DNA of 64,000 bases from the NCBI RefSeq assembly GCF_013378445.1, contig NZ_JABXYK010000010.1, positions 1 through 64,000 on the forward strand, in the 5' to 3' direction. A program made the translations under genes and the position numbers. This document shows positions 27,831-44,538 of this stretch, one piece after another. The notes under the pieces are model-generated. The model did no database searches. It saw nothing but the letters and a program-made list of their open reading frames with translations, and was not told where the DNA came from. Position 1 is the first letter of the stretch. Each line of letters begins with the position of its first letter. This DNA comes from Mycoplana rhizolycopersici. GTDB lineage: Bacteria > Pseudomonadota > Alphaproteobacteria > Rhizobiales > Rhizobiaceae.

Positions 27831-28346
27831 GTGGTCGCAATCCCCATGCAAATCAACGTCAACGGCGAGGCCCGCAGCATCGAGGCCGATCCAAAGACGC
27901 CCCTTCTCTATATCCTGCGGAACGATCTGGCCCTGAACGGGCCGAAATACGGATGCGGGCTCGGTGAGTGCGGGGCCTGTGCGATCCTGGTCGATGGCCG
28001 CGCAGTGCGTTCCTGCACCATACCGCTCTCCGCGATCGGAGATCGCCAGGTCGTGACGCTGGAAGGGTTGGCGTCAGGCGAGGAACTCCATCCCGTGCAG
28101 CGTGCCTTCATTGAGGAAGCGGCCGCGCAATGCGGCTATTGCCTGAACGGAATGATCATTGCGACTGCGGCCCTTGTCGCGGCGAAGGTGAACGCCGGCG
28201 AGGCCGATATTCGCGAAGCTCTGCGGCACCACCTCTGCCGCTGCGGAACACATATGGAAATATTGGCGGCGGCACGGCGGGCAGTGCGCTATGCGCAGTC
28301 CGAGCGTCAAGCCATAGCGACGCCAGAAGCGGAGAAGCAGGCATGA
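27831..28346 (+). CDS. nicA: Nicotinate dehydrogenase small subunit, 2x[2Fe-2S]
   Basis: 171 aa. Passes electrons from the molybdenum subunit in the hydroxylation of nicotinate to 6-hydroxynicotinate. The plant-type cluster motif CGLGECGAC...C is near residues 42-62, and the second cluster motif CGYC...CRCG near 101-139. Start GTG 27831 with GGGGAT upstream; the alternative ATG 27846 has no ribosome site. The stop overlaps the nicB start (ATGA), the usual tight coupling. Confidence 0.94.
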   Translation: MVAIPMQINVNGEARSIEADPKTPLLYILRNDLALNGPKYGCGLGECGACAILVDGRAVRSCTIPLSAIGDRQVVTLEGLASGEELHPVQRAFIEEAAAQCGYCLNGMIIATAALVAAKVNAGEADIREALRHHLCRCGTHMEILAAARRAVRYAQSERQAIATPEAEKQA

Positions 28347-31300
28347 TCCGGGATGAAGAACAGCACGGATCCGCTACGCCGGAGGCAGCCGGGCTGCTCT
28401 GCGTGTACTCTGCCGGGGCCGACGGCCGCATCTATCTTTCGATTGACCAGGCGGGTGTCGTCCGTGCCTTCAACGGCCACGTCGACCTGGGTACCGGAAT
28501 ACGCACTTCGCTCGCGCAGATCGTGGCCGAAGAGCTGGACGTTCCGTTCAGCCATGTCGAGATGATCCTCGGCGATACCCGGACTGGCCCGGACCAGGGT
28601 GCCACGATCGCGAGCGAAACCATCCAGGTCGCCGCGATCCCGCTGCGGCAGGCGAGCGCGACGGCCAGGGCCTATCTCATCGACAAGGCGGCTGCGCACC
28701 TCGACGCGCCAAGGGACAGGATCATTCTCGACGAGGGGGTGATCCGGGGGAGCGAGGGCGAGAACTGGAACATTCCGATCGGCGATCTGGTCGCCGGCGA
28801 GAACATACGGCTGGAGATCGACCCGGAGGCTTCCGTCAAGCCGGTTTCGTCCTATCGACTGGTCGGCTCATCGCGCCCGCGTGTCGATATTCCCGCCAAG
28901 GCGACCGGCAAATGGACCTACGTGCACGACGTTCGCATACCGGGCATGCTGCATGGCCGCGTTGTCCGCCCGCCTTACGCAGGTTTCGATCACGGCGACC
29001 ACGTCGGAAACAGCCTGATTGCGGTAGACGAGGCATCTGTCGCGCATATCGACGGCCTCGTCGCAGTGGTGGCGATCGGGGATTTCGTCGGTGTCGTGGC
29101 CACGCGCGAGGAGAATGCGGCCGAAGCCGCGAGGAGCCTGAAGGTTGACTGGCGCCCTGCTCCCCATCAGCCGGACCTGAATTCGCCAGAGAACGCCCTT
29201 CGCGCCAATCCGGCGACGCCACGCAAGCTTGCCGACAGGGGCAATGTCGATCTGGCACTGGCAGCCAGCCCGCAGCCAATGGACCGCACCTATGTGTGGC
29301 CCTACCAGATGCATGCCTCGATCGGCCCGTCCTGCGCCGTGGCGGACTATCGCGACGGCCAGCTCACGGTGTGGTCCGGTACGCAGAACCCGTTTCCCAT
29401 GCGCCGCGATCTGGCTCTCCTGCTCGATATCCCCGAAGACCTCATTGTGGTGGAACGGCTGGAGGCGGCCGGTTGCTATGGACGCAACTGCGCCGACGAC
29501 GTGACCGCCGATGCGGCCCTTCTTTCACGCGCCGTCGGCGCGCCGGTGCGCGTCCAGTTGACCCGCGAGCAGGAGCATGCCTGGGAGCCGAAAGGTGCGG
29601 CTCAGGTGATGGACGTTCGCGGAGGTCTGGATCTGGAAGGCGGCCCCGCGGCCTACGATTTCCAGACGCGCTATCCGTCTAACCTCGCGCCCACGCTGCC
29701 GCTCATTCTGACAGGCAAGGTGCCGCCTGTGGCCGAGGTCTTGCAGATGGGCGACCGAACGGCAATTCCGCCCTACGCCTATGGCAATCTGAGGGTGACC
29801 GTCCACGACATGCCGCCGATCGCGCGCGCCTCGTGGTTTCGCGGCGTCTCTGCGATGCCGAATACGTTCGCGCACGAATGCTACGTCGATGAGCTTGCAG
29901 CCGCGGCCGGCGTCGATCCCATCGAGTACCGGCTGCGCTATCTGCACGATCCGCGCGCGGTCGATCTCGTGCGTGCGGTCGCCGAGCGGTCGAAGTGGGT
30001 TCCGCATACGACGCACGGCACTCTGGGCGGTGAAGGCGACCTGCTTTACGGGCGCGGTTTCGCCTATGCCGTCTACGTGCACGGCAAGTTTCCGGGCACC
30101 GCGGCGGCCTGGGCGGCCTGGGTGGCCGACGTCGCGGTCAACAAGAAAACCGGCGAAGTCGCGGTGACCAAAGTCATCTGCGGCCAGGATTCCGGCCTGA
30201 TGATCAACCCCGACGGTGTCCGACACCAGATCCACGGCAACATCATCCAGTCGACAAGCCGCGTGCTGAAGGAAAAGGTCGATTTCTCCTCGACCGCCGT
30301 GACCTCGAAGGAATGGGGCGGCTATTCGCTGATCACCTTCCCGGAGGTGCCGGATATCGACGTGCTGATGATCCCGCGGCAGGACGAGCCACCGCTCGGC
30401 GTGGGCGAATCCGCCTCGGTCCCCAGCGCGGCCGCTATCGCCAACGCCGTGTACGACGCGACAGGCATCCGCTTTCGGGAGCTTCCCTTTACGCCGGAGA
30501 AAATTCTCGCGGGGCTGAACGGCGACGAGCCGATCCGCACGCAAACGGCTTCCCGGAAACGGTGGTGGCGCAACCTCGGCCTTTCGGTGGCAGGCAGCGT
30601 CGCGGCTTTGTCCGGGCTGGCGACGATGGCATCGCCCTGGCGCCCGGCCATTCCGAGCATCGAGCGTCCGGGCAGCGACGTCTACAGTGCGGCGACGATC
30701 GAGCGCGGCCGCCTTGCATCCGCAGCCGGCGCCTGCAACGTCTGTCATGTCGGAAACGACGGGACGCCATTTGCCGGGGGGCGCCGTTTCGACACGCCCT
30801 TCGGCGCCGTGTATGCCACCAACATCACCCCCGATGTGGAGAATGGAATTGGCGGCTGGTCCTACACAGCCTTCGAACGCGCCATGCGTGAAGGTGTCAG
30901 CCGCGACGGACACCACCTCTACCCCGCCCATCCCTATACGTCCTTCGCCGGCGCAGACGACGCCGACCTGCAGGCGCTCTATGCGTATCTGACAACCCAG
31001 CAGCCGGTCGCCCAACGCGCGCCGGAAACCAGGTTGAAGTTCCCCTACAGTTTCCGGCCGATGATGGCCGGATGGAACGCCATGTTCCACAAGGCCGAAC
31101 CGTTCAAATACGATGCGAGCCGCGACAGCCAATGGAACCGCGGCGCCTATCTGGTGGAAACGCTGGGCCATTGCTCGGCCTGCCACACCGACCGTAATGC
31201 TCTCGGTGCGGAAAAAAGAGGCGCAGCGCATCTTTCCGGCGGCTTCGCTGATGGCTGGGAAGCACCGGCGCTGAATGCCGTCGCCAAGGGGCCTGTCGGC

Positions 31301-31879
31301 TGGACCGAGGACGCCTTCTTCGACTACCTGCGAAAGGGTCACTCGAACCAGCACGGCAGCGCCGCAGGGCCGATGGCCGACGTCGTCAAGGCCATGCAGC
31401 CGCTTCCCGACAGCGACATACGCGCAATTGCCAACTACCTTGCCAGCCTGAACGCAGACGCCGCCCCGGACAAGGCCGAGGCGCAGCGCGAGGCGGCCCT
31501 TGCAGCCAGCAATGCCGCCAAGACCGAGGCGGCGCGGATCTCGCCGCGGGGCGAGCGCATCTTCAACGGGGCCTGCGCTTCCTGCCACGGCGACGACAAG
31601 ATCCTGTCGTCGCTGGCGCTCAATTCCAATCTCCATGCAAACACGCCGGACAACCTTCTGCAGGCCCTGCTGACCGGCGTCGAGGCTCCTGCCATCCTGG
31701 CACAGACGACGGGTCGCGAGGCCCCGGAAGTCATGTCGATGCCGTCCTTCCGGCAAACATTTGACCAACGGCAACTGGAAGACCTGGCCGCCTATGTCCG
31801 TGCACGTTTTGCCCCGGACAAGCCGGCGTGGGACGACTTTGCAGCAGCCATGCAGCGTGTTAACGCCGCACCGCATTGA
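28343..31879 (+). CDS. nicB: Nicotinate dehydrogenase large subunit: molybdopterin domain fused to triheme cytochrome c domain
   Basis: 1178 aa. Residues 1 to about 735 form a xanthine-dehydrogenase-like molybdenum-binding domain (GHVDLGTGIRTSLAQIVAEE at the start, PPLGVGESASVPSAAAIANA at the end). A hydrophobic stretch near 755-775 (LGLSVAGSVAALSGLATMAS) may anchor it. Three CxxCH heme sites follow: C798 (CNVCH), C944 (CSACH), C1078 (CASCH). This matches P. putida NicB, which hydroxylates nicotinate and delivers electrons to the respiratory chain instead of NAD or O2. An 11-bp gap separates it from the next gene. Confidence 0.95.
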   Translation: MIRDEEQHGSATPEAAGLLCVYSAGADGRIYLSIDQAGVVRAFNGHVDLGTGIRTSLAQIVAEELDVPFSHVEMILGDTRTGPDQGATIASETIQVAAIPLRQASATARAYLIDKAAAHLDAPRDRIILDEGVIRGSEGENWNIPIGDLVAGENIRLEIDPEASVKPVSSYRLVGSSRPRVDIPAKATGKWTYVHDVRIPGMLHGRVVRPPYAGFDHGDHVGNSLIAVDEASVAHIDGLVAVVAIGDFVGVVATREENAAEAARSLKVDWRPAPHQPDLNSPENALRANPATPRKLADRGNVDLALAASPQPMDRTYVWPYQMHASIGPSCAVADYRDGQLTVWSGTQNPFPMRRDLALLLDIPEDLIVVERLEAAGCYGRNCADDVTADAALLSRAVGAPVRVQLTREQEHAWEPKGAAQVMDVRGGLDLEGGPAAYDFQTRYPSNLAPTLPLILTGKVPPVAEVLQMGDRTAIPPYAYGNLRVTVHDMPPIARASWFRGVSAMPNTFAHECYVDELAAAAGVDPIEYRLRYLHDPRAVDLVRAVAERSKWVPHTTHGTLGGEGDLLYGRGFAYAVYVHGKFPGTAAAWAAWVADVAVNKKTGEVAVTKVICGQDSGLMINPDGVRHQIHGNIIQSTSRVLKEKVDFSSTAVTSKEWGGYSLITFPEVPDIDVLMIPRQDEPPLGVGESASVPSAAAIANAVYDATGIRFRELPFTPEKILAGLNGDEPIRTQTASRKRWWRNLGLSVAGSVAALSGLATMASPWRPAIPSIERPGSDVYSAATIERGRLASAAGACNVCHVGNDGTPFAGGRRFDTPFGAVYATNITPDVENGIGGWSYTAFERAMREGVSRDGHHLYPAHPYTSFAGADDADLQALYAYLTTQQPVAQRAPETRLKFPYSFRPMMAGWNAMFHKAEPFKYDASRDSQWNRGAYLVETLGHCSACHTDRNALGAEKRGAAHLSGGFADGWEAPALNAVAKGPVGWTEDAFFDYLRKGHSNQHGSAAGPMADVVKAMQPLPDSDIRAIANYLASLNADAAPDKAEAQREAALAASNAAKTEAARISPRGERIFNGACASCHGDDKILSSLALNSNLHANTPDNLLQALLTGVEAPAILAQTTGREAPEVMSMPSFRQTFDQRQLEDLAAYVRARFAPDKPAWDDFAAAMQRVNAAPH

Positions 31880-31890
31880 AGAGGTTTGTC

Positions 31891-34581
31891 GTGCAGCAAC
31901 AATCGCAGGTAGAGCGGCCGGGGGAGGACATTTTCCGCAAGCCCCCCCACGCGTTCATGCCATCGGCCTACTGGTTCTGGCATTCGGTGCCGGACGAGGC
32001 GACCTGCAGGGCGCAACTTGCAGACTTCAAGGCGCAGGGTTTTGGTACCGTCCTTATCCAGGCACGATTGGCGATGCCGGTTTCGGACTACCTGTCTCCT
32101 GCCTTCATCGCTGCCTACCAGTGCGCGATTGCAATCGCTGCAGAGCTCGATCTCAAGGCCGGCATCTACGACGACTACAACTGGATCAGCGGCCATGCGG
32201 GCGGAAGAACCGTCGCGGAGCACGATCATCTGCGGGAACGCCACCTGTTCTGGTCCGCCGGCAGCGATCGTGAGAGTGCGATCAGCGGCATACGCCCGCC
32301 GTTCGTTGACGGCATGGGCCCCGACATTCTTGCCTGGCAGTATGAGGAGGGTCGGGTCGAATGGTGCGAGTGGAAGATCGAGGCGGCGATACTGAGCGCT
32401 AAGGCCGTCCCGCATAACCTTGATCAAATCGTCGACGTGACGCGGCAGACGCATATCGTCAGCAGCGATGCTGCCGGCTGCCGCTTTGCCTTTGAGGGCG
32501 TGGTTCCGGACGGCCAAGCGCTCACTGTCTTCGTCAGCGCCCGCTCCGCGACCTCCCGGCTGATCAACTATCTCCTTCCCGAGGCCGCCAGGCGGTTTAT
32601 CGAAGTCGGCCTCGACCCATTGATACAGCCATTGCGGGCATTCGTGCCGGATACGCTGGGCTTCGTCTTCTACGACCAGCCTGCCGCCGGCTTCTATCGG
32701 TGGGACCAGATCTCGGGACATGTCGGAAACAGCCTGCTCTTCTCAAAGGAACTGCCGTCAGCCGTGGAAGCGGAGACCGGGCTTTCCTTTGCGAAAGCCC
32801 TTGCGGCGCTGGTGCATGGCATCGGGGCGGACACGGCGAGAGTGCGCGCGCAATTCTTCTCTGCCTATTCCAGCAGATTGAACGAGGCATTCTTCGGTAC
32901 GCTGCGCGATTGGTGCGAGCGGACCGGGATCGCTCTTACGGGGCATGAGATCCTGCCGCACGTCAGCTCCTGGTCGCTCAATGGCGGCTTCACCAGCATT
33001 GATCCGCGCGTCGCACCCGCCGTCGATTTCTTCGGTATCGATGCATTCCGCGACGAGACCGCCGTCGACGCCAACAATTTCATTCCGCAGCTTGCTCCGA
33101 AGCTCGGCGATTCCGTTGCCCGCGCCAACGGCCGAAGCCGGTGCGCAGTCGAAACCTATGCCAGCGCGTTGCGCACCCCGGTGCGAGCGGCCGGACAATG
33201 GGAACTGACGCTCGAGACCTTGCGCGCCCACGTCATCCGCCTTCATTGCCTCGGCATGCGCCAGCATGTCTGGCACGGCGTCTACCAGACAGACGGCCGC
33301 GACGATGATCCCACACCGTTCACCAATCCGCGCTTCGATTTTGCGCCAGGCATCAACTTCGAGCCCTGGTGGCCCTATCATGGACTGTTCGCAGAAGAGT
33401 CGGCGCGGCTCTCGGCCTTCATGGAGCCGGCAAAGCCGCTTGCGCCCGTCGCCATTTTCTATCCGCTGCACACGGCGTGGGCAGAGGGGCCGCGCCACAG
33501 CCATGCCAGCCACGTCGGCGCGTGGTGCGAAGGGTTACTGGAGCTCGGTTGCGATTTCATGTTCGTCAGCGAAAGCGATCTTGCGGCGGGCAAGGTGAGC
33601 AACGGGCGAATCCAGGCTGCGGGCCTCGCATTCGATGCGGTCGTCCTGCCTTCGGTAACGGTCCTGCAATCCAACGCCGTGCTGCAAAATCTCGACCGCT
33701 TCCGCAGGGATGGCGGGCGTGTTTGGTCCTCGGGCGATCGGCCGCGCACATGTTGCGAAGCGACGGACGGTTCCAGCACCGTTTTGCCAACGACACATTC
33801 TGTGGACGCTCCGACCCTTCAGGAGCTCGCACAACTCGTCTCCGACCTGCCGAATCGCGGCCTGAAAATCATCATGACCATGCCGCGCAAGCCGTGGACA
33901 TGGATCGGGGCCGAACCAGACGGCGGTTGGCGGGTGGTGCTGTTCAACGACGGCGACGACCCCGGCGGTTGCGACATTGTGCTCGGTACAGCGATGCGGT
34001 GCGAGATGTGGTCGCCGGCGGACGGGAGTATTGCCGCGCTTGCGGATTGCGACAAGCTCTCGGTCCCGCTGGAGGCGCGCGAACTGCGATGCCTTCGCTT
34101 TCTGCCCGGCGCAGCCGGAGGCAAGAGCGCCGCTTCGGCAATATCGTCCCCGCCATCGGCTGACGGCATCTCGACGGTTCTGGACGGAGTCTGGAACTTC
34201 GCCGTCGAGGAAGGCGCTGCATCCGTTTCGCTTTCCGTCGATGCCGGGTGGGAGGAGCAGGGCTTTGCTTCCTTCTCGGGAACCGGCATTTATTTCCGGG
34301 AGATTGCGATCGAGACGGACGGCGAGTGGCTGCTCGAAGTGCCGGAAGCACATACGGCGGTTTCGGTGCGGATTGACGGGCGCCTGTGCGGGCGCCGTGG
34401 CTGGCGACCCTACCGTTTCGCGCTGGGGCGGCTCGCCAAGGGTATCCACCGCCTGGAAATTGCCGTGTCCAATACGGCGGCCAACCGCTATTACCGCAAC
34501 ACACCCTATCAGGGCGATATGCAGGACCGGAGTGGGCTGACCGCTCCTCCCCGCCTCGTTCTAATTGACCAGGAAAGCTGA
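31891..34581 (+). CDS. Large glycoside-hydrolase-like protein (GH106/beta-sandwich type)
   Basis: 896 aa from GTG 31891 (AAGAGG 6 nt upstream; a TTG at 31876 overlapping the nicB stop is also possible). The N-terminal part reads AYWFWHSVPDEATCRAQLAD, FKAQGFGTVLIQARLAMPVS and GIYDDYNWISGHAGGRTV, recalling the barrel of GH106 rhamnosidase-like proteins. The C-terminal 150 residues look like a galactose-binding beta-sandwich (GTGIYFREIAIETDGEWLLE). No signal peptide, so cytoplasmic: it would act on an imported glycoside. I cannot name catalytic residues with confidence. It is 11 bp from nicB and 6 bp from the next hydrolase gene. Confidence 0.65.
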   Translation: MQQQSQVERPGEDIFRKPPHAFMPSAYWFWHSVPDEATCRAQLADFKAQGFGTVLIQARLAMPVSDYLSPAFIAAYQCAIAIAAELDLKAGIYDDYNWISGHAGGRTVAEHDHLRERHLFWSAGSDRESAISGIRPPFVDGMGPDILAWQYEEGRVEWCEWKIEAAILSAKAVPHNLDQIVDVTRQTHIVSSDAAGCRFAFEGVVPDGQALTVFVSARSATSRLINYLLPEAARRFIEVGLDPLIQPLRAFVPDTLGFVFYDQPAAGFYRWDQISGHVGNSLLFSKELPSAVEAETGLSFAKALAALVHGIGADTARVRAQFFSAYSSRLNEAFFGTLRDWCERTGIALTGHEILPHVSSWSLNGGFTSIDPRVAPAVDFFGIDAFRDETAVDANNFIPQLAPKLGDSVARANGRSRCAVETYASALRTPVRAAGQWELTLETLRAHVIRLHCLGMRQHVWHGVYQTDGRDDDPTPFTNPRFDFAPGINFEPWWPYHGLFAEESARLSAFMEPAKPLAPVAIFYPLHTAWAEGPRHSHASHVGAWCEGLLELGCDFMFVSESDLAAGKVSNGRIQAAGLAFDAVVLPSVTVLQSNAVLQNLDRFRRDGGRVWSSGDRPRTCCEATDGSSTVLPTTHSVDAPTLQELAQLVSDLPNRGLKIIMTMPRKPWTWIGAEPDGGWRVVLFNDGDDPGGCDIVLGTAMRCEMWSPADGSIAALADCDKLSVPLEARELRCLRFLPGAAGGKSAASAISSPPSADGISTVLDGVWNFAVEEGAASVSLSVDAGWEEQGFASFSGTGIYFREIAIETDGEWLLEVPEAHTAVSVRIDGRLCGRRGWRPYRFALGRLAKGIHRLEIAVSNTAANRYYRNTPYQGDMQDRSGLTAPPRLVLIDQES

Positions 34582-34587
34582 GCGACC

Positions 34588-36831
34588 ATGCTGAAACATG
34601 CGACAATCCCGATCGAGCGCGCCTGGAACACCTGGTCCGACCGGCCCGCCGAGATGGTGTTCCTGCCGCTTGGCGTACGGCTGACGCCCATCCTCTATTC
34701 GACGCGGACGCGAACGACCTCGGCGATCGAACCGCGCCGTGACGCCGTGAGGTTGGGTCGACACGCCATCGACGGTTCGCTCATAGAGTTGGAAACCGAT
34801 CACGCGGGAACCACGCTTGCGTTTTCCTGGGACAAGACCGATCCCTTCGCCATAAGAGGCGAGTGGCATGGCAAGGCCAGCGGCGAATGGGGGCTCCGGT
34901 TCTGGATCGCTCTGGCGATTTCGTCCGAAGGCGGCGAAAGCGTGCAGTATCGTGTCGAAGATGGCGTGGCCCTGGTCAAGGTTGGGACGCGCTACGTCGC
35001 GGTGGTGAGCGCCGACGCTCCCGTCCAGGTGACGGGGCATGACGATCTCGATGCCCTGCGGACCGATTTCGAAACGAATGGGTATTTCTATCTCGGCAGC
35101 CGAAGCAACGACGCTCCCGTCCTCGCCCTTCGCTTCAACCTGGAAATGATGCGCCACGGTGCATATGCGGCGGCCGTCGCGGACAGTGCCGAACTGGCCA
35201 TCGAAAAAGCACGGGCCGAACTGGCGCGAAAGACCGCCGTCGGCCGCGCGGATGATCATGCCGGCCTCTATGCCGGATCGCTTGACGCCATTCGCGATGT
35301 CGTTGCCTGGAACACGATCTGGGATGCGACCAACGCCCGCCCCTACACGGCGGTCACACGGATCTGGAACCTCGGCAAGTTCGCCGTCTGGTACAACGAT
35401 CAGATTTTTGCGGCGCAACTGGCAGGAACGTTCGACGCCGATCTGGCGCGCGAGAACCTGGCTGCGGCGCTGGCGGGAGCGACGCCGCAGGGTAACATTG
35501 CCTGCATCGTGACGTCGAACGATGCCTGGGTCGACCGCAGCCAGCCGCCGCACGGTGGGCTTGCCGTCTGGCAGCTCTATCAGCGCACCGGCGAGCGTTC
35601 CCTTCTGGAGGCCAACTATGTTGCCCTCGCCCGCAATCAGCGCTGGTGGCGGAAGAGCCGCGACCCCGAAAGGCGTGGGCTTCTCTCCTGCGGTACATCC
35701 GACGTCGGCGAGGCGCTCTACAAGGGCACTGCCTTCGGTGCCCGCAACGAAACGGGCATGGACAATTCGCCGACGCACGACGAGGCGATTTACGATCCGG
35801 CGACACGTACGCTTTCAACCTTCGATCTCGGCCTGAACTGCGCGGCCGCGCTTGACGCGGAAATACTGGCGCGGATGGCGGAAATTCTCGGTCATGCCGA
35901 GGACGCGATCGAGTTTGCCGCGATTGCGGAAAACAGCCGTCGGCTGATCCGCGAGGAATTGTGGGACGACAGCCGCAAGATCTTTGCCAATCGCCAGCGC
36001 AGCGGTGGCTTTGTCCGCTCGTTTTCGCCGACGACCTTCTATCCGCTGTTCTGCGGCGCGGCCAGCGACGAGCAGGCCGCCTTCCTCCTTCAGCACCTTG
36101 CGGACGAACGCACGTTTGCGGGGACATTCGGCCTGCCGAACGTCACGCGCGACGATCCTGCCTTCGCCGACAACGTCTACTGGCGCGGGCGCATCTGGCC
36201 GAACGTCAACTACATGGTCTGGCTGGGCCTGCGGCGCTACGGTTTCCACGCCGAAGCGACGAAGCTTGCTGAGATGAGCCACGCGCTCTTCATGAAATCC
36301 TGGCGTCAGGACCGGATCGCCGCCGAGAACTACAACGCCACGACCGGCGAGGCGATGGACCAGGGCGATACGGATCCCTTCTACATTTGGTCGGCCCTGC
36401 TGCCGCTGATGGCGGTCGGCGAGGTGGTCGATTTCGATCCCTGGAACGGATGGGAGATCCGCAATCCCGGTCGCGACACAAGCATCGGACCGATGCTGTC
36501 CCCAATGGGAAAGCTCGACATTCGGGTCGAGAACTCGCTTCTCACCTTGGAACTTGACGGCAAGCCTAAGCTCGCGACGGACCTCCAGGCTCGGTTGTCA
36601 AACATCGCGTTCTGGCCGAGGGGCTTCAGTTGCGTCATCGATGCGACTGATGCGGCGGGCAGCATCCGCATCGTCGATGTCGAAGCTATGTCTGTCGTGG
36701 CTGTCCGCATGGACGGAGCGGAGGCGCGCTGGAGCCTCGTGGGCTGCGATCTGCAGATCGAGGTTGGGCCTGCAGGTGCTGCTCGGACGCTTGAAGTTCA
36801 TTTTTCGACCGCCCACGCCGCGCCTTCCTGA
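34588..36831 (+). CDS. GH63-like (alpha/alpha)6-barrel glycoside hydrolase
   Basis: 747 aa, no signal peptide. The trehalase/GH63-like barrel occupies about residues 230-650. NETGMDNSP with Asp392 corresponds to the general acid region of GH63 (ExGxDNSPR type), VYWRGRIWPNVNYMVWLGLR is the most conserved family stretch, and ENYNATTGE (about 580-588) carries the likely base. The N-terminal 200 residues are beta-rich and the C-terminal 100 form another sandwich. GH63-like bacterial enzymes act on alpha-glucosides or glycerate glycosides; the substrate is not readable. Fourth gene of the nicAB transcript by spacing. Confidence 0.75.
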   Translation: MLKHATIPIERAWNTWSDRPAEMVFLPLGVRLTPILYSTRTRTTSAIEPRRDAVRLGRHAIDGSLIELETDHAGTTLAFSWDKTDPFAIRGEWHGKASGEWGLRFWIALAISSEGGESVQYRVEDGVALVKVGTRYVAVVSADAPVQVTGHDDLDALRTDFETNGYFYLGSRSNDAPVLALRFNLEMMRHGAYAAAVADSAELAIEKARAELARKTAVGRADDHAGLYAGSLDAIRDVVAWNTIWDATNARPYTAVTRIWNLGKFAVWYNDQIFAAQLAGTFDADLARENLAAALAGATPQGNIACIVTSNDAWVDRSQPPHGGLAVWQLYQRTGERSLLEANYVALARNQRWWRKSRDPERRGLLSCGTSDVGEALYKGTAFGARNETGMDNSPTHDEAIYDPATRTLSTFDLGLNCAAALDAEILARMAEILGHAEDAIEFAAIAENSRRLIREELWDDSRKIFANRQRSGGFVRSFSPTTFYPLFCGAASDEQAAFLLQHLADERTFAGTFGLPNVTRDDPAFADNVYWRGRIWPNVNYMVWLGLRRYGFHAEATKLAEMSHALFMKSWRQDRIAAENYNATTGEAMDQGDTDPFYIWSALLPLMAVGEVVDFDPWNGWEIRNPGRDTSIGPMLSPMGKLDIRVENSLLTLELDGKPKLATDLQARLSNIAFWPRGFSCVIDATDAAGSIRIVDVEAMSVVAVRMDGAEARWSLVGCDLQIEVGPAGAARTLEVHFSTAHAAPS

Positions 36832-36863
36832 GGAAGAACTTGACAGAAGGAAATTCTGTCTTA

Positions 36864-36882
36864 TTAATTTGTACACAAATAA
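36864..36882. promoter_or_regulatory. Palindrome 1, TTAATTTGTACACAAATAA
   Basis: Arms AATTTGT and ACAAATA flank a central AC. It matches the palindrome at 37066-37089 over the consensus TTAATTTGTAYRCAAATWAA. Lies about 30 bp after the GH63-like stop and 320 bp before the importer operon. Confidence 0.5.
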
Positions 36883-37065: not shown

Positions 37066-37089
37066 ATTTAATTTGTATGCAAATTAAAT
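37066..37089. promoter_or_regulatory. Palindrome 2, 24 bp with 11 of 12 arm bases matching
   Basis: Left arm ATTTAATTTGTA, right arm TGCAAATTAAAT. It sits 114 bp upstream of the binding-protein gene. Length and symmetry suit a MarR or GntR dimer. The MarR gene inside the operon (41663) is the obvious candidate. Confidence 0.55.
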
Positions 37090-37202
37090 TCGGCAACTCT
37101 TTTCACGCTGTCCGCCAACTTCGGATGGTGTGGTGAACAACCGCAGTCGGTGGCTGTCGCCGCGATTGTTAACAACAGCAGGTCCACCAGAGGGGTGCAG
37201 CA

Positions 37203-38279
37203 ATGACTGAATTTTCCAGACGCAACACGCTGAAGCTCATGACGGCCACACTGGCCGCCGGCGCAAGCTTCTCACTCCTGCCGCGCAAGGTTTTTGCTGC
37301 GGGCCAGATCACGGTGCTTAACTGGCAGGGTTACGGCACCGACGAAGCCTGGTCGCTGAAGCAGTTCACCGAAAAGACCGGCATCAGCGTGGTGCATGAC
37401 TACTACAGCTCCGAATCCGAGATGCTCACCAAGCTGCGCACCAATCCCGGCGCCTACGATCTGGTCGTGCTCAACGCCGCACGCTGCGCCCAGGCCGTTG
37501 CCGAAGACCTGCTGCAGCCGATCGACTTCTCGAAGGTTCCGAACGCGGCGACCGTCGATGAGACCCTGCGCGGCAACCCGAACTTCTCCAAGGATGGCGT
37601 AGGTTTTGCGGTTCCGTGGGTCTGGGGCATGACCTCGCTCGCGATCCGGGAGGGCAAGCCGAAGCCCGAGAGCTATAAGGCGCTTGCCGATGCGACCTAC
37701 AAGGGCCGCGTGGCAATGGACGACGACGCCATCATCAATGTCGGCATCGGCGCGCTGATGACCGGCCAGGACATGAACGATCCGCAGGACCTGGCTGCGG
37801 TCACCGAGGCCCTCAAGTCGATCAAGCCGAACGTCAAGCTTCTATGGTCGACAGAGGACCAGTGGAACAAGTCGTTCGCAGCCAACGAGTTCGACCTGTC
37901 GGTCTTCTGGTCGGGCGGCTCGGTCCGGTCGAAGCGCAATTCGAAACTGCCTGTCGAATTCGTCGTTCCGAAAGAGGGCGCGGTGGGTTGGGTCGACGGT
38001 CTCGGCATCCCCGCTACCGCACCGAACCCGGAGGGGGCGCTTGCCTTCGCCAACTGGCTGATCGACCCGGCCTTCTATGTCGAATGGGCAACCAAGGTCG
38101 GCGCCCCGGCATCCTCGAACTCCGCTGCGCTCAACAGCTTGCCGGCCGACGACCTGAGCCGCCAGGTGCACAACCCGGAATACCTGAAGACGATGAGCAT
38201 CATGTCGGCACTGCCCGACGATCGCCGCGAAGCCTTCAACAATGTCTGGCAGGAAGTGAAAGCCTTCTATGCAGAATGA
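37203..38279 (+). CDS. ABC transporter substrate-binding protein, PotD/PotF-like, Tat-exported
   Basis: 358 aa. The signal carries a twin-arginine motif (SRRNTLKLMTATLAAGAS), so it is probably exported folded. The mature part is a type II periplasmic receptor of the spermidine/putrescine class: NWQGYGTDEAWSLKQFTEKT near residue 40, FAVPWVWGMTSLAIREGK near 136. Members of this class also bind opines, thiamine precursors and amino-acid-like cations, so polyamines are not assured. AGAGGGG precedes the ATG. It heads a six-gene operon. Confidence 0.9.
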   Translation: MTEFSRRNTLKLMTATLAAGASFSLLPRKVFAAGQITVLNWQGYGTDEAWSLKQFTEKTGISVVHDYYSSESEMLTKLRTNPGAYDLVVLNAARCAQAVAEDLLQPIDFSKVPNAATVDETLRGNPNFSKDGVGFAVPWVWGMTSLAIREGKPKPESYKALADATYKGRVAMDDDAIINVGIGALMTGQDMNDPQDLAAVTEALKSIKPNVKLLWSTEDQWNKSFAANEFDLSVFWSGGSVRSKRNSKLPVEFVVPKEGAVGWVDGLGIPATAPNPEGALAFANWLIDPAFYVEWATKVGAPASSNSAALNSLPADDLSRQVHNPEYLKTMSIMSALPDDRREAFNNVWQEVKAFYAE

Positions 38280-39183
38280 CCAGCTCGCGCTGGCGCAGAC
38301 GCGCGGATCAGTCGATCCGCGCGTCAAGCGCCCCCTCCCCGCCTGGGTCTCGACGACGGCGCTGTTGCTGCCGACATACGGTTGGCTCACGATCGCCATA
38401 TTTCTTCCGCTGCTTACCATGCTGGCCTTCAGTTTCATGTCGGCCACCCCGATGGGCAAGACGCCGGTCGAATTCACGCTGAAGCAGTACCGGGCCTTCA
38501 TCGATCAGCCGTATCTTCTGCGGATCGGTTTCAACTCGCTGATGATGGGTTTCTGGACGACGCTGTTCTGCGCCATTCTGGGCTTTCTCGCAGCCGTGGC
38601 CCTGGTGCGCGCAACGGTCGGCAAGACGCGCGAGACGCTTCTGGTGCTGATCCTGCTGCCGTTCTGGACCAACGGCCTGGTCCGCGTCTTCTCCTGGACG
38701 ATGGTGCTTCGGGAAAACGGCTTTCTCGACAATATCCTGCACATGGTCGTCCCCGATGCCGGATCGATCAGCATCCTCTACACGCGCTACGCCGTCGTGC
38801 TCGGGCTGGTCCACGGCTATCTGCCCTACATGATCCTCACCTGTTACATCGCGCTCGTAACGATTGATGACGCGATCATCGAAGCTGCCGCCAGCCTCGG
38901 CGCGCGCTGGTGGACGATCCTCTACAAGATCCTCATTCCGATGGCCGCGCCCGGCCTGATTTCCGGCGCCGTGCTGATCTTCATCCCGGTTATTGGCTCC
39001 TTCATGGAGCCACGCATTCTCGGGGGACGCGTCGGCGTCACGATGGGAACAGTCATCGAGGACCAGTTCACGCAAGCCTTCAACTGGCCGCTCGGCGCTT
39101 CGCTGTCGTTCACGCTGCTTGCCGTCGTTCTTGCAATCTTCGCTACATTCTCCGGCGTGCTGCGCGGCAGGACGGCAGGTTGA
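38269..39183 (+). CDS. ABC transporter permease, PotB-like
   Basis: 304 aa, six membrane helices after a cytoplasmic tail of about 35 residues. The EAA loop is EAAASLGARWWTILYKILIP near residues 205-224. It starts 11 bp inside the end of the binding-protein gene, which indicates translational coupling. PotB/PotH-type half of the channel. Confidence 0.93.
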   Translation: MQNDQLALAQTRGSVDPRVKRPLPAWVSTTALLLPTYGWLTIAIFLPLLTMLAFSFMSATPMGKTPVEFTLKQYRAFIDQPYLLRIGFNSLMMGFWTTLFCAILGFLAAVALVRATVGKTRETLLVLILLPFWTNGLVRVFSWTMVLRENGFLDNILHMVVPDAGSISILYTRYAVVLGLVHGYLPYMILTCYIALVTIDDAIIEAAASLGARWWTILYKILIPMAAPGLISGAVLIFIPVIGSFMEPRILGGRVGVTMGTVIEDQFTQAFNWPLGASLSFTLLAVVLAIFATFSGVLRGRTAG

Positions 39184-39193
39184 GGAACGCACC

Positions 39194-39973
39194 ATGAGAC
39201 AACTCGGACGCTTTTACCTGATCGCGATACTCCTGTTCCTGTACACGCCGATCGCCGTGATGATGGCGATGGGGTTCAACGAGTCGCCGCTTTACGAACT
39301 GCCCTTCACCTTCTCCACGCGCTGGTACGAAGCGTTGCTTTCGAACCAACCCCTGCTGAAGGCCGGAGCGAACAGCATCATCATCGCGCTGATCACAGCG
39401 GTGATCGCCACCACGCTTGGCACGATGGCCTCCGTCGCGCTGTCGCGCCGGACTTTCCGCGGAAAAAGCCTTCTGCAACTCCTGCTTCTGCCGCCGATCG
39501 CCATTCCGTGGCTCATCACGGGCACGGCGATGCTGATCTTCTTCTATTGGAGCGGCATCGGGCGCGGCATGCACGCCCTACTGATCGGCCACGTCGCGCT
39601 TGCCATTCCGTATGTGGTTCTCGTGGTGGGTACGGGTTTCAAGACGGTGCGTGCCGACCTTGAGGAAGCGGCCATGAGCCTGGGTTCCACGCCTGTGCAC
39701 GCCTTCTTCTCGGTCACGCTGCCGCTGCTCTACCCGAGCATCCTTGGCGCCGCGCTCTTCGCCTTCGCGGTCTCCCTGGACCAGTTCGTCATTTCCTACT
39801 TTCTCGCAACGCCCGGCTACACAACCCTGCCGGTGCAGATCTATTCGGCAATCCGCAAGGGCTTCACGCCTGAAATCAACGCGATCTCGACCTTGCTGCT
39901 GCTCGGTTCGATGGCCGTCATCCTGATCTTTGCGCGCTTCGCCAAACCCGGAGACACCCGTGACAAACGTTAA
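39194..39973 (+). CDS. ABC transporter permease, PotC-like
   Basis: 259 aa, six membrane helices. It begins MRQLGRFYLIAILLFLYTPI; the EAA loop is EEAAMSLGSTPVHAFFSVTL near residue 155. The ATG at 39194 follows GAGGAACGCACC. A longer in-frame reading to 38993 lies inside the PotB-like gene and is rejected. The end overlaps the ATPase start by 14 bp. Confidence 0.93.
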   Translation: MRQLGRFYLIAILLFLYTPIAVMMAMGFNESPLYELPFTFSTRWYEALLSNQPLLKAGANSIIIALITAVIATTLGTMASVALSRRTFRGKSLLQLLLLPPIAIPWLITGTAMLIFFYWSGIGRGMHALLIGHVALAIPYVVLVVGTGFKTVRADLEEAAMSLGSTPVHAFFSVTLPLLYPSILGAALFAFAVSLDQFVISYFLATPGYTTLPVQIYSAIRKGFTPEINAISTLLLLGSMAVILIFARFAKPGDTRDKR

Positions 39974-41009
39974 AGTCAAGTCAGTCGCCAAGACCTACGG
40001 CCCGATCCCGGTCCTCACAGACATTAGCACCGAATTTCAGGAAGGGTCTTTCACCAGCCTTCTCGGCCCCTCCGGCTCGGGCAAGACGACGCTCCTTCGC
40101 ATCATCGCCGGCTTCATCAAGCCCGACGAGGGTGTCGTCATGATCGGCAATAGCGATGTGACGAACGTGCCGGTCTGGGGCCGTAACATCGGCATGATGT
40201 TCCAGTCCTACGCCTTGTTCCCGCACATGACGATCGCGCAGAACGTCGCCTTCGGCCTGGAGCGCCGCGGCATCAAGGGAGAGGCGGCCCGCAAGGAGGT
40301 GGATCGTGCCCTGGAAATGGTGCGCCTTTCGGGCTTCGGCGATCGCCTGCCCAAGCAACTCTCCGGCGGCCAGCAGCAGCGTGTTGCCCTGGCGCGGGCG
40401 ATCGTGATCAAGCCGAGCGTGCTGCTTCTCGACGAGCCGCTTTCCGCACTCGATCGCCGGCTTCGACAGGAGATGCAGGTGGAGTTGCTGCGGATCCAGC
40501 GCGAAAGCGGCCTGACGACCATCTTCGTCACCCATGACCAGGAAGAAGCACTGACGCTTTCCGACAAGGTCGCAATCCTCGATCGTGGCCGGATCGTGCA
40601 GATCGGCGATCCGGAGACTGTCTACGAAAAGCCGTTGACGCGATTTGCAGCCGAGTTTCTCGGCGATTCCAACTTTCTTTCCGGAAAGGTCGAGAACGGC
40701 GCGGTCCGGCTCTCCAACGGCACGGTCGTGCGCAGCGACAGCGCACTGCCGGGCAACGGTGCGGACGTCACGCTGGCGATCCGCCCCGAAAAGATGTCGC
40801 TGGTTACGGCAGACACGCAGCCGAACAAGCTCTCGGCGCGCATTACGACGGTCATCTATGCCGGCCCCGTTCTCTCCTACATCCTGGAGACCCCGGATGG
40901 GCTGCCGTTGAAGCTGTTTGCGCAAAATCGCGATGGCCGTGTCCTTCGGGAAGGCGAAACCGTCAGCCTGAGTTGGTCGCCGGAGCACACGATCGCAGTG
41001 GCGAACTGA
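39960..41009 (+). CDS. ABC transporter ATP-binding protein, PotA-like
   Basis: 349 aa. Walker A LLGPSGSGKTTLLR near residue 36, signature QLSGGQQQRVALARAI near 135, Walker B SVLLLDEPLSALD, H-loop FVTHDQEEALTLSD. The C-terminal 110 residues form a TOBE domain (GADVTLAIRPEKMSL). The start is GTG 39960 with GGAG 6 nt upstream, overlapping the permease gene by 14 bp. Confidence 0.94.
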   Translation: MTNVKVKSVAKTYGPIPVLTDISTEFQEGSFTSLLGPSGSGKTTLLRIIAGFIKPDEGVVMIGNSDVTNVPVWGRNIGMMFQSYALFPHMTIAQNVAFGLERRGIKGEAARKEVDRALEMVRLSGFGDRLPKQLSGGQQQRVALARAIVIKPSVLLLDEPLSALDRRLRQEMQVELLRIQRESGLTTIFVTHDQEEALTLSDKVAILDRGRIVQIGDPETVYEKPLTRFAAEFLGDSNFLSGKVENGAVRLSNGTVVRSDSALPGNGADVTLAIRPEKMSLVTADTQPNKLSARITTVIYAGPVLSYILETPDGLPLKLFAQNRDGRVLREGETVSLSWSPEHTIAVAN

Positions 41010-41013
41010 CAAG

Positions 41014-41610
41014 ATGCCTGGGCCGGGGGTTTGGGACAATGCGTTGCATGTCACGATCGACATGCAGCGGCTCTTTGCGGAGGACACGCCTTGGCACACG
41101 CCCTCGCTTGGCTCCATTCTGCCGAACGTCGTCCGTCTTTGCGAGGCGCGACCTGACAGGACCGTCTATGCGCGGTTCGTCGTGCCTCCCAATGCGCAGC
41201 AGGCTTCCGGTAGCTGGAAGACCTACTACGACCGCTGGCAGATGATGACGGGAGACATGCTCGATCCGGCGATGCTCGATCTGGTCGAGCCGCTTTCGGC
41301 AGTCGCTGCCAGGGGTTGGATCGTGGAGAAGTCGACCTACTCGGTTTTCGCAGTCCCCGGCTTCGCAGAGAGGCTTGCTGCCGAACAGGTGGACACGGTT
41401 ATTATGTCAGGTGTCGAGACGGATGTTTGCGTCTACGCAAGCATGCTGGCAGCAGTCGATCTCGGATATCGGGTCGTGCTCGCAACGGATGCGCTTGGAA
41501 GTGCCGACCCCAAGGCCCATGACGCCGTGTTGCAACATCTGGCGCCACGACTGCCTGAGCAAATCGAACTCATGACCACCGCCGCCGTCCTTGAGCGGTG
41601 GAAACGGTAG
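41014..41610 (+). CDS. Isochorismatase-family cysteine hydrolase
   Basis: 198 aa with the full triad: Asp16 in HVTIDMQRLFAEDTPW, a Lys in GWIVEKSTYSVF (about residue 109) and Cys in MSGVETDVCVYASML (about 137). This family includes nicotinamidase, maleamate amidase and carbamoylases. It starts 4 bp after the ATPase stop, so it is part of the importer operon and probably hydrolyses an amide bond of the imported compound. Distinct in sequence from NicF and from the YcaC-like protein at 17071. Confidence 0.88.
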   Translation: MPGPGVWDNALHVTIDMQRLFAEDTPWHTPSLGSILPNVVRLCEARPDRTVYARFVVPPNAQQASGSWKTYYDRWQMMTGDMLDPAMLDLVEPLSAVAARGWIVEKSTYSVFAVPGFAERLAAEQVDTVIMSGVETDVCVYASMLAAVDLGYRVVLATDALGSADPKAHDAVLQHLAPRLPEQIELMTTAAVLERWKR

Positions 41611-41662
41611 CTAAGCGTTGGCCGCGGCAAAGAAGACCGCCCAACCATTGAGGAGCCTTTGG

Positions 41663-42145
41663 ATGGACATAAGCTCGAACGAGCAGCACTTGTCCGGCAA
41701 GCCAACCAAGAACGGCACCGGACCGGCGGGAGCCGACCAGTATGCGCTCGGCGAACAGATAGGCTTTTTCCTTCGCCAGGCCAACCAGCGGCACGTCTCG
41801 ATCTTCGCCGGACACATGGCGGAGAAACTGACGACCACGCAATGGGCGGCTCTGGTCAAGCTCAAGGAAATGCAGCCCTGTTCCCAGGGGAGCCTCGGAC
41901 GGGAAACGGCCATGGACATGGCGACGATCAAAGGTGTGGTGGACAGGCTGGTAAAGCGCAATCTCATCAATACCGCCCCCGACCCGAGCGACGCGCGACG
42001 GCTGGTGCTCACGCTGACGCAGGAAGGCGTCGCCATCGTTCAACGCAACCTTTCTGTTGCGCTGGAGATATCGCGGGAAACGCTCGGGCCCCTGAGCACG
42101 GCCGAGCAGATGATGTTGATGGAATTGCTCCGAAAGATCAGCTGA
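41663..42145 (+). CDS. MarR-family regulator, paralogue of the nic-linked MarR
   Basis: 160 aa from the ATG at 41663, chosen because GAGGAG lies 7 nt upstream (a TTG at 41618 is in frame). HTH/wing: TTTQWAALVKLKEMQPCSQG, TAMDMATIKGVVDRLVKR, DPSDARRLVLTL. Aligns along its length with the MarR at 20792-21271 (shared EQxGxxLRxAxQRHxxIF, ATIxGxVDRLxxRxLI, LSTAEQ-type tail). Shared ancestry suggests related ligands, possibly pyridine acids. Likely binds the palindromes at 36864 and 37066. Confidence 0.88.
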   Translation: MDISSNEQHLSGKPTKNGTGPAGADQYALGEQIGFFLRQANQRHVSIFAGHMAEKLTTTQWAALVKLKEMQPCSQGSLGRETAMDMATIKGVVDRLVKRNLINTAPDPSDARRLVLTLTQEGVAIVQRNLSVALEISRETLGPLSTAEQMMLMELLRKIS

Positions 42146-42186
42146 ACGCCGCGCCGACAGACAGACAGAAATTGCAGGAAATCGTG

Positions 42187-44538
42187 ATGTTCCAGGATGC
42201 CAACGTCGCTGTCGCGGATGTCATTGCGGCCATGACCGACGAGGAGAAGGTCGATCTTCTCAGTGGACGGGGGCTTTGGAAGACTGCCGCTATCGCGCGC
42301 CTGAACATTCCGTCGATAATCATGACCGATGGAACCTATGGCGTGCGCTATTCCACCACGCAGATAGACGCAGGTGACGACGACGAAGACGGCTTGCAGC
42401 AGTTTCTCGCGGTCGTGAACCAGGATGCCGACGACGACACGGGAATGTTCGGCACCACCCTTCCGGCGACCTGCTTTCCAAACGGCAACCTGATCGGCTG
42501 CTCTTGGGATTACGATCTGACCTACCGGATGGGACAGGCCCTGGCCGCGGAGTGCCATCAGATGGGTGTCCAGCTTCTCCTCGGTCCGGGGATCAACACC
42601 CGGCGGACGCCGCTGGCCGGTCGCGCCTACGAATACTACTCCGAGGATCCGGTCATCAATGGCGATCTCGCCGCGGCCCTGATCAGCGGTCTGCAGGACA
42701 ATGGTATCGGCGCTTCGCTGAAGCATTTCGCCTGTAACAATTCCGAAATCGACCGCACCAACACCAGTTCGGACGTCAGCGAGCGGGCGCTGCGCGAAAT
42801 CTATCTCGCCGGGTTCGAGCGGGCGATCGCGAAGAGCGCGCCGTGGACCGTGATGAGCGCCTACAATCCCGTCAACGGCGTGCAAGCGGCGGAAAATCAT
42901 TGGCTTCTGACGCACGTGTTGCGTCAGAATTGGGGGTATGACGGGCTTGTCGTTTCCGACTGGCATGCTGTCAAGGACCGGCCGGCGTCACTGGCAGCGG
43001 GAACCGAGCTGGACATGCCGGAAAGCAAACCCCGCAAGGCGCAATTGCTGGCCGCCCTGAAAACCGGTGAGATCGACCGGCAGGCTGTCGACGCCGCCTG
43101 CGGGCGGATGCTCGATTTCGTGCGCAAATGCCTCGCCGCAAAGCCCACCGTGCCCGGTGCGGATCTGGACCGGCATCATGCGCTTGCGCGTGACATTGCA
43201 GCGGAGTCGATGGTTCTTCTGAAGAACGAGAACGCGGTGCTGCCGCTTGACCCGGCTACGATAGGGCGCCTCCTCGTCGTCGGTGACGGCGCACTGAAGC
43301 CCCAGATCCAGGGATCGGGATCGGCAACCACCAATCCCTATCTGGTCGATATTCCACTGTCGCAGATCGACGCGCGGGCGGCCGGGCGGTTTGTCCTCGA
43401 ACACCTGCCCACGCCCCACGGCACAGCAACGGAAATCGAGGCGCATATTGCCGGGATTTGCGAACGCGCGGGGGAGGCTGACGCAGTCGTCGTCTTTGCC
43501 GAAAACGAAAAGGGGCGCAACGGCGAGGGTAACGACCGCGATACGTTGGATATCGTCCCCGCGCAGAACGCCGTGATAGCAGCGCTGGCGGGTGTCGCAG
43601 ACAAGCTCGTCGTCGTGCTCACCATGCCCGATGCCGTCGAGATGCCGTGGCTGGAGACGGTGCCTGCCGCACTCGCCTGCTTCTACCCCGGCCAGGGTGG
43701 CGGCGAAGCCATTGCGCGCATTCTATTCGGGGAACAGAATCCCTGCGGCAAGCTTTCGGCGACGATGCCAGCCAGGATCGAAGATATCCCCGGCTGGCAC
43801 AGCTATCCGGGCGAGCACGGCCGTCACCTCTATAGCGAGGGGATGTTCGTCGGCTATCGCTACTACGATCTCAAGAGCATCGCGCCGGCTTTCCCTTTCG
43901 GCCATGGCCTGAGCTTTACCACTTTCGGCTACGAGGATCTGGCGATCGACGCCAGCGAGATCTCGCCCGGCAGCAGCTGCAACGTCACGCTGACCATCCG
44001 CAATACCGGCACGGTGCCTGGAAAGGAGATCGTGCAGATCTATGTGCGGCCCGTTGCACCCGGCCTGAAACGGCCCATACGAGAACTCAAGGCGTTTGCG
44101 AAGATCGCTCTTCAGCCCGGGGAAGCCAGATCGGTGACCTTTTCCCTCGGGCCCCGCGATTTCCAATATTTCGACACGTCGCGCGGAAGCTGGGTACTGC
44201 AGGCGGAAGCGTTTGTCATTGAGGCGGCGGCGTCATCGCGCGACATTCGGCTGTCTCATGTCGTCCCTTGCCGAAGCGAGCCGCTCCGCCTGCCCGCCTT
44301 TACCGAGCATTCTCCAACCTCGGCGATCTTGGCCGATGCGGCCGCGGCCGAGACCGTGCGAGCATTTATCGCGGAGAAGCTTGCCGTTTCCGATGATGAA
44401 GCGAGGATCATAACGGAAAAGGTCCGCGGCTCCTTCCTCGGTTTCCACGAGACCCTCAGCTGGTTCATCGGCGACAGCATCTCCAGGGACGATGTCGTAA
44501 AGTTGCTTTCCGACCTCAACAACGGGAATTACGGCTGA
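42187..44538 (+). CDS. Glycoside hydrolase family 3, beta-glucosidase-like
   Basis: 783 aa, no signal peptide, hence intracellular. The GH3 N-terminal barrel holds GASLKHFACNNSEIDRTNTS (about residues 177-196) and the nucleophile Asp258 in GLVVSDWHAV. The alpha/beta sandwich follows (AAESMVLLKNENAVLPLDP), then a fibronectin-III-like domain (GTVPGKEIVQIYVRPVAPGL). An extra C-terminal helical segment of about 75 residues ends ISRDDVVKLLSDLNNG. AGGAA precedes the ATG at 42187; the 41-bp gap to the MarR gene suggests one operon. Would release glucose or another beta-linked sugar from an imported glycoside. Confidence 0.92.
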   Translation: MFQDANVAVADVIAAMTDEEKVDLLSGRGLWKTAAIARLNIPSIIMTDGTYGVRYSTTQIDAGDDDEDGLQQFLAVVNQDADDDTGMFGTTLPATCFPNGNLIGCSWDYDLTYRMGQALAAECHQMGVQLLLGPGINTRRTPLAGRAYEYYSEDPVINGDLAAALISGLQDNGIGASLKHFACNNSEIDRTNTSSDVSERALREIYLAGFERAIAKSAPWTVMSAYNPVNGVQAAENHWLLTHVLRQNWGYDGLVVSDWHAVKDRPASLAAGTELDMPESKPRKAQLLAALKTGEIDRQAVDAACGRMLDFVRKCLAAKPTVPGADLDRHHALARDIAAESMVLLKNENAVLPLDPATIGRLLVVGDGALKPQIQGSGSATTNPYLVDIPLSQIDARAAGRFVLEHLPTPHGTATEIEAHIAGICERAGEADAVVVFAENEKGRNGEGNDRDTLDIVPAQNAVIAALAGVADKLVVVLTMPDAVEMPWLETVPAALACFYPGQGGGEAIARILFGEQNPCGKLSATMPARIEDIPGWHSYPGEHGRHLYSEGMFVGYRYYDLKSIAPAFPFGHGLSFTTFGYEDLAIDASEISPGSSCNVTLTIRNTGTVPGKEIVQIYVRPVAPGLKRPIRELKAFAKIALQPGEARSVTFSLGPRDFQYFDTSRGSWVLQAEAFVIEAAASSRDIRLSHVVPCRSEPLRLPAFTEHSPTSAILADAAAAETVRAFIAEKLAVSDDEARIITEKVRGSFLGFHETLSWFIGDSISRDDVVKLLSDLNNGNYG

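Follow-up and report, generated by a model that had tools for sequence, protein, structure and literature searches.

Here we describe a locus of Mycoplana rhizolycopersici (Rhizobiaceae) in which the genes for nicotinate degradation (nic) are joined to glycoside hydrolase (GH) genes and an importer operon. The window, by which we mean the whole stretch analysed, comprises 64,000 nucleotides (positions 1 to 64,000 of contig NZ_JABXYK010000010.1, assembly GCF_013378445.1). The nic pathway is complete: nicX, F, E, D and C as well as nicAB are all present with fitting domain families, under names of the known pathway that we take to apply here. From 27419 the genes nicC, D, E, F and X extend to the left, followed by a major facilitator superfamily (MFS) gene and a MarR gene; rightward from 27831 run nicA, nicB, the GH106-like and GH63-like genes, the importer genes potDBCA, a cysteine hydrolase gene, a second MarR gene and GH3. 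The features are as follows.

20792-21307 (-), nic-linked MarR regulator (NicR-like); Pfam MarR 3.2e-12
21491-22804 (-), MFS transporter (NicT-like); Pfam MFS_1 1.1e-50
22930-23958 (-), nicX, 2,5-dihydroxypyridine dioxygenase; name assigned from position and size
24016-24717 (-), nicF, maleamate amidohydrolase; Pfam isochorismatase 9.8e-40; true start probably about 24654
24662-25486 (-), nicE, maleate isomerase; Pfam Amdase 6.4e-21
25486-26286 (-), nicD, N-formylmaleamate deformylase; alpha/beta hydrolase 5.2e-19
26283-27419 (-), nicC, 6-hydroxynicotinate monooxygenase; FAD_binding_3 3.1e-24
27613-27626 (no strand), operator A (AGCGTATACGCT), in the shared nicC/nicA promoter region
27831 (or 27846)-28346 (+), nicA, 2Fe-2S subunit; Fer2_2 1.7e-24
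28343-31879 (+), nicB, molybdenum (Mo) subunit with C-terminal cytochrome c; MoCoBD_2 8.3e-32, Cytochrom_C 3e-19
31891-34581 (+), GH106-like glycoside hydrolase, 896 amino acids, GTG start; profile and predicted-fold matches
34588-36831 (+), GH63/MGH1-like glycoside hydrolase, 747 amino acids; PF22422 2.9e-53
36866-36881 (no strand), operator B site 1, upstream of potD
37070-37085 (no strand), operator B site 2, upstream of potD
37203-38279 (+), PotD-like binding protein with N-terminal RR signal motif; SBP_bac_8 8.4e-35 and alignment with E. coli PotD
38269-39183 (+), PotB-like permease
39194-39973 (+), PotC-like permease; BPD_transp_1 3.8e-12 on open reading frame 38993-39973
39960-41009 (+), PotA-like ATPase; assigned on open reading frame 39930-41009
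41014-41610 (+), isochorismatase-fold cysteine hydrolase; 2e-30
41663-42145 (+), second MarR regulator; 3.3e-11
about 42187-44538 (+), GH3; two GH3 domains, 1.1e-38 and 5.9e-49

The nicA and nicB genes overlap in an ATGA and together encode a two-subunit Mo hydroxylase. NicX gave no match in the Pfam search. The gene order agrees with an earlier reading of the sequence alone (the sequence-only reading), which had placed the importer operon, cysteine hydrolase, second MarR and GH3 genes after the GH pair and had reported gaps of 11 bp between nicB and the GH106-like gene and 6 bp between the two hydrolase genes, both confirmed here. With gaps this short, both hydrolase genes are most likely part of the nicAB transcript. 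Also as that reading had it, no signal peptide could be recognised by eye in the GH106-like, GH63-like or GH3 protein. The nearest named relatives at the locus, judged by identity of the GH106-like protein, are Sinorhizobium shofinae (90%) and Rhizobium subbaraonis (89%).

Conservation of the linkage was assessed in 35 fetched loci, each with a gene for the GH106-like protein, and all counts were taken within the fetched flanks. GH63 was present in 33 of these loci, nicAB in 32, nicXFEDC in 31, PotBCA and the cysteine hydrolase in 30 each, and GH3 in 27. Parts were missing from two Bacillota loci (GH106 only), from Oceanicella L066 (neither nic nor GH3), from Neorhizobium alkalisoli L063 (without nicXFEDC and GH3, on a stretch ending at a contig end), from L057-L059 (no PotBCA, hydrolase or GH3 within the flank) and from L047 (no GH3). 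Two further counts were excluded from the support: that of the second MarR (30/35), in which cross-matches to its nic-linked relative may be mixed, and those of PotD in L057 and L058, where the matches are partial.

The gene order itself varies. It reads GH106-GH63-Pot-hydrolase-nicAB in L063 and nicAB-GH63-GH106 in L069, and in L079 the Pot-hydrolase genes face GH106-GH63-nicBA; the Pot genes are split around PotD in L071, L075 and L077, and nicAB lies away from the module in L070, L072-L074, L076 and L078. The proposed tie between the GH-like genes and nicAB is thus upheld in several arrangements, and because of this variation the linkage is not explained by simple inheritance of one frozen operon. 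GH3, which the sequence-only reading had counted as a member of the block, stands in the window and in the majority of loci, but the flanks fetched for the rearranged loci L063, L066 and L068-L079 showed no copy of it, which places GH3 outside the core. That reading had also let a ribokinase end the leftward nic block; we do not retain it as part of the system, as no ribokinase is annotated next to nic in two R. leguminosarum plasmid records (L091 and L092) whose gene table is incomplete; for the nearest relatives, the fetched flank stops short of this place. In the same plasmids, XdhC-type Mo-cofactor maturation genes (L091:13884-14909(+), L092:27599-28623(+)) lie between nicB and GH106 or after GH3.

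A sample of 394 genomes of the family, which overlaps the 35 loci and is not independent of them, contained the GH106 protein in 21 genomes (22 matched; a 20-bit match in G381 was dropped) and NicX above 570 bits in 24. The two occur together in 12 genomes, against 1.3 expected (Fisher p = 2.5e-11, phylogeny uncorrected); 41 further genomes with only weaker NicX-family matches, at most 313 bits, were not counted. Nine GH106 genomes have no NicX above 570 bits, and NicB was found in 11 of 13 genomes searched, these nine and four others. No more than 20 kb separates GH106 from nicB or nicX in 15 of the 21 family genomes. A wider sample of 385 genomes from the class, which misses some carriers such as Oceanicella, yielded GH106 at E<=1e-60 in one genome, that of the window itself. 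A second NicX copy, 72% identical, was seen in a genome of the same genus (G347:C61:12834-13853).

Regulatory sites provide a second line of evidence. Upstream of nicA, a dyad GCGTATAC was found in 9 of 15 core loci compared, the window included, and homologues of the NicR-like MarR adjoin nicAB or nicX in relatives. Operator B is a palindrome, AATTTGTAYRCAAATT (TTTGTATACAAA type), which stands in two copies ahead of potD; a degenerate pattern for it matches twice in the whole 5.6 Mb genome, both times before potD. Among 32 core loci, operator B lies upstream of potD in 28 of the 29 that have potD, and just two more such sites fall outside this position in 732 kb. A matrix built from 57 core sites was applied to 24 other loci, and for ten of these, picked by hand, a null simulation of 50 runs was made at a threshold of 10 bits. 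These ten loci hold 18 sites of at least 10 bits (null mean 1.1, maximum 4), all ahead of regulon genes: potD 6 (L063, L070, L073, L074, L076, L078), GH106 4 (L063, L070, L073, L074), nicA 3 (L063, L096, L097), MarR 2 and hyuA 2 (both L096 and L097) and a ferredoxin-reductase-like gene 1 (L074). The remaining two of the ten, L072 and L079, hold no such site. One genome, G236, which contains L074 and L097, has operator B at all six targets. In the other 14 loci, sites of at least 10 bits precede potD or fall between it and potB in L066, L068, L071, L075, L077 and L099 (the last overlapping L075), precede nicA in L068, and precede the MarR and importer genes in L093-L095; L057-L059, L069 and L098 have none. 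The short degenerate pattern gave 2, 3 and 2 matches in three relatives, G106, G178 and G236; those of G106 are one site, counted on both strands, at potD, and one of three in G178 and one of two in G236 lie at the module, at GH106. The MarR genes of L093-L097 are closer to the second MarR of the window than to its NicR, and this second MarR (41663-42145) is the probable owner of operator B. The palindrome thus links the parts of the module, also in relatives where the genes are split up.

Where no close NicX exists, nicAB keeps other company. In L093-L095, nicAB is preceded by a MarR gene, a branched-chain-type importer (read in L093) lying between the two, and near both, on the opposite strand, lies an enamidase homologue (L093:1725-2927(-)), which scores 380 bits against 2VUN (next match 34) and is 97% and 86% identical to those of L094 and L095. 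In Eubacterium barkeri, enamidase is part of the 6-hydroxynicotinate route. The likeness to that route is the enamidase homologue near nicAB and MarR; the loci differ in their Rhizobiaceae host and cytochrome-type NicAB. We regard the enamidase locus as a probable second nicotinate route in Rhizobiaceae genomes without close NicX. Three genomes (G336, G368 and G166) combine it with the module (L076, L078 and L072, respectively), far apart or on different contigs. At L096:441-8082(-), nicAB is accompanied by caprolactamase-like HyuA and HyuB (492 and 334 bits, with the cut-offs at 1000), a pair of AA_synth proteins, one protein of PRK04334 type and a 515-amino-acid protein for which no useful family or PDB match was found; L097:632-6378(-) has the HyuA, 515-amino-acid and PRK04334-type genes beside nicAB, HyuB being seen in L096. 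This gene set, with its operator B sites, may represent a reductive 6-hydroxynicotinate route. Since nicAB stands beside an enamidase homologue or HyuAB, NicAB probably still acts on nicotinate in loci of the L093-L097 type, most likely making 6-hydroxynicotinate, and the glycosidase-importer module is most likely tied to nicotinate whichever ring-opening route follows.

The assignment of the GH106-like protein is remote, and the family label of the sequence-only reading holds for fold and profile, while the sequence itself falls below the Pfam cut-off (PF17132, E=0.041, 12.8 bits against 29). PF17132 matches 19 of 26 GH106-like relatives at E<=1, and a profile of the 26-member family finds the alpha-L-rhamnosidases RHA-P (6Q2F, 1.3e-28) and BT_0986 (5MQM, 2.6e-21). 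An AlphaFold model (predicted local distance difference test, pLDDT, 88.4; predicted template modelling score, pTM, 0.91) had the same two structures as its best solved matches in Foldseek, 6q2f at E 2.6e-39 and 5mqm at E 2.0e-34, with TMq 0.64 and a root-mean-square deviation (rmsd) of about 10; the next match was a GH42 arabinopyranosidase. As judged from this model, the protein has the GH106 fold and is a remote relative of GH106, sharing with these enzymes the fold and profile similarity in the N- and C-terminal parts; it differs from them in being shorter, in having no signal peptide, and in its 12-15% identity and the rmsd just given. In BT_0986, E593 is the catalytic base and E461 the acid (PMC6828813). 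The GH106-like profile alignment begins just past E593, and E421 is invariant in the GH106-like family.

The GH63-like protein is well above its cut-offs (PF22422, 182.1 bits against 27; PF03200, 45.7 against 22.4), and its profile finds YgjK at 7e-27. By counting in the alignment, E580, invariant in 22 of 22 sequences, lies opposite YgjK E727, which we take to be a catalytic residue; D392, a candidate for the general acid, is likewise invariant in the aligned family. GH3 has both domains and the SDW motif, the nucleophile motif of that family, and its best NCBIfam model is an arabinopyranosidase (604.6 bits, far under the cut-off of 1300).

Isochorismatase-like cysteine hydrolases use an Asp-Lys-Cys triad, and in the enzyme at 41014-41610 D16, K106 and C139 are invariant in 14 aligned sequences. 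The amidase-type hydrolase that the sequence-only reading saw beside the importer is present, with the correction that the amidase of the nic block, NicF, is a separate gene (24016-24717 (-)). Two candidates for NicF were ruled out: the hydrolase at 41014 as the only NicF of the pathway, as 24016-24717 sits in the nic block and fits better, and the isochorismatase at 17071, which is YcaC-like. The latter belongs to 17071-18819 (-), left of the ribokinase, where a YcaC-like hydrolase and a glyoxalase-fold protein are encoded. Farther left, 12949-14454 (+) encodes a LysR-type helix-turn-helix domain fused to a glycosyltransferase-family-3-like domain.

The PotD-like protein is 30% identical to E. 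coli PotD, and we take the listed residues of the latter to be its polyamine or ligand contacts. W34, Y37, D168, W229, W255 and D257 are kept in all 11 relatives aligned; the positions of T35, E36 and E171 are changed, leaving the polyamine contact set incomplete. Since three tryptophans and two aspartates are retained and E171 is not, the pocket would accommodate a compact cation, for instance a pyridinium glycoside. The importer shares family and gene set with the polyamine importer PotABCD and differs from it in the loss of the E171 position and in sitting with glycosidases.

From the observed gene content, conserved linkage, shared operator and fold, we infer the following order of steps and pairing of regulator with operator. 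The PotDBCA-like transporter would import a small glycosylated pyridine, and the GH106-like, GH63-like and, in this lineage, GH3 enzymes would strip different sugars from it in the cytoplasm, and the cysteine hydrolase may hydrolyse a form that carries an amide. Released nicotinate would be hydroxylated by NicAB and, in the window, degraded to fumarate through NicC, X, D, F and E; where relatives have no close NicX, the module probably supplies another ring-opening route. The importer would be controlled by the MarR repressor (41663-42145) acting on operator B, and the GH pair, within the nicAB operon, would lie behind operator A.

As to substrates, one study of Arabidopsis roots (PMC6776627) reports the N-glucoside, O-glucoside and riboside of nicotinate as well as two tentative identifications, an N-pentoside and an N-rhamnoside; with the exception of methyl nicotinate, it finds every nicotinate conjugate in the liquid medium. 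In outline, the sugars of these conjugates would fit the hydrolase families, and the best-fitting candidates appear to be the root N-glucoside, N-pentoside and N-rhamnoside. Trigonelline, which the sequence-only reading had also considered, has no sugar and so would not explain the hydrolases. On balance we think it more likely than not that the block serves as a regulon for glycosides of nicotinate. A more specific form, in which it is a dedicated regulon for plant-secreted nicotinate N-glycosides, with new pyridinium-N-glycosidases, one MarR, at least two ring-opening routes and one hydrolase per sugar (rhamnose for the GH106-like enzyme, glucose for the GH63-like enzyme, pentose or glucose for GH3), is put forward tentatively, with somewhat less confidence than doubt.

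Several observations weigh against a regulon for nicotinate glycosides. Half of the NicX genomes (12/24) lack GH106. G178 has GH106 and no NicB at E<=1e-60, and none was found at that threshold in G386, whose genome is 65% complete. G106, G178 and G236 have weaker NicX-family matches (154, 282 and 145 bits) and may thus have a NicX-like step. Outside the module, the short operator pattern has further matches, two of three in G178 and one of two in G236, and a reversed control matched once in each. The matrix scan found no operator B of at least 10 bits in L069, L072, L079 and L098, nor in L057-L059, where PotBCA lies outside the flank. The match to the substrates is one of hydrolase family names only. 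The linkages known for GH63 and GH106 are alpha, and the plant nicotinate N-glucoside is beta. The pentoside and rhamnoside are given as tentative identities in PMC6776627. Finally, in Oceanicella, L066:701-12763 holds GH63-GH106, the importer and the cysteine hydrolase, plus a monooxygenase of NtaA type and a regulator of PucR type, without nic genes or GH3 and without a full-length NicB (best 38%); this module may serve other aglycones. A Rut-type pyrimidine route in L066 was considered and rejected, the luciferase-like gene being of the NtaA/DmoA type with a RutA match of only 41 bits.

Three other explanations were weighed. It is unlikely, on the evidence to hand, that the module handles a different conjugate of nicotinate or nicotinamide, such as the riboside or its degradation product, a nicotinoyl sugar ester or a nicotinate-bearing oligosaccharide, with importer, hydrolases and amidase working in series on one larger molecule. 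Three hydrolase families with an amidase-type enzyme could suit a multi-sugar compound, and a nucleoside-phosphorylase-family gene directly follows GH106 at L071:11395-12294(+) and L075:7736-8641(-); however, that gene occurs in 2 of 19 loci compared, both of one genus, the nearest solved relatives of the L071 copy act on methylthioadenosine, and the core is without any ribosidase family. We are still more doubtful that an unrelated cationic or amino glycoside is imported, with NicAB co-regulated through shared plant exudates or hydroxylating another heterocyclic aglycone. The Oceanicella module lacking full-length NicB would be in keeping with this, as would the polyamine binding of PotD relatives and the six E. 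coli PotD residues kept in 11 of 11; against it, nicAB remains in the regulon through the rearrangements and stands beside genes of the nicotinate route, such as enamidase, where close NicX is absent. That the genes adjoin by chance, a generic plant-sugar locus having come to lie beside nic on a catabolic island, is already disfavoured and very improbable: plasmids, on which catabolic islands are common, do carry the GH106-like gene (68 records, 56 from Rhizobium), but the linkage is kept in several gene orders and the operators are shared at separate places in the genome.

As a nicotinate-linked glycoside module, the idea of the sequence-only reading, that a sugar-linked pyridine is taken up, freed of its sugar in the cytoplasm and handed on to nicAB, is well supported by the conserved linkage, the shared operators and the rearranged genomes; as to substrate, it is unproven. 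The Pseudomonas putida type of nic cluster consists of nicAB, C, X, D, F and E, a MarR regulator and an MFS transporter, all of which the window has in common with it. To these the window adds an ATP-binding cassette importer, the GH106-like, GH63-like and GH3 enzymes, a further cysteine hydrolase and another MarR, which probably has an operator to itself. A plant enzyme, NicGH, resembles the proposed hydrolases as a glucosidase acting on a pyridine N-glucoside; it differs in being of plant origin and, according to PMC13184244, cleaves nicotine N-glucoside and does not accept nicotinate N-glucoside. No bacterial nicotinate-glycoside system was recognised in the titles and opening lines of abstracts found in the one open literature library searched, and the available text of a rhamnose-regulon paper (PMC3870299) makes no mention of GH106.

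Taken with its genomic context, the conserved importer and sugar-removing gene set is most likely used on sugar-tagged nicotinate from plant roots. As the GH106-like gene is carried on many Rhizobium plasmids, the idea is testable in genetically tractable strains. If it is true, root-derived conjugates of vitamin B3 (nicotinate) would be a rhizosphere nutrient channel for rhizobia, and two hydrolase families would gain an unexpected class of substrate.

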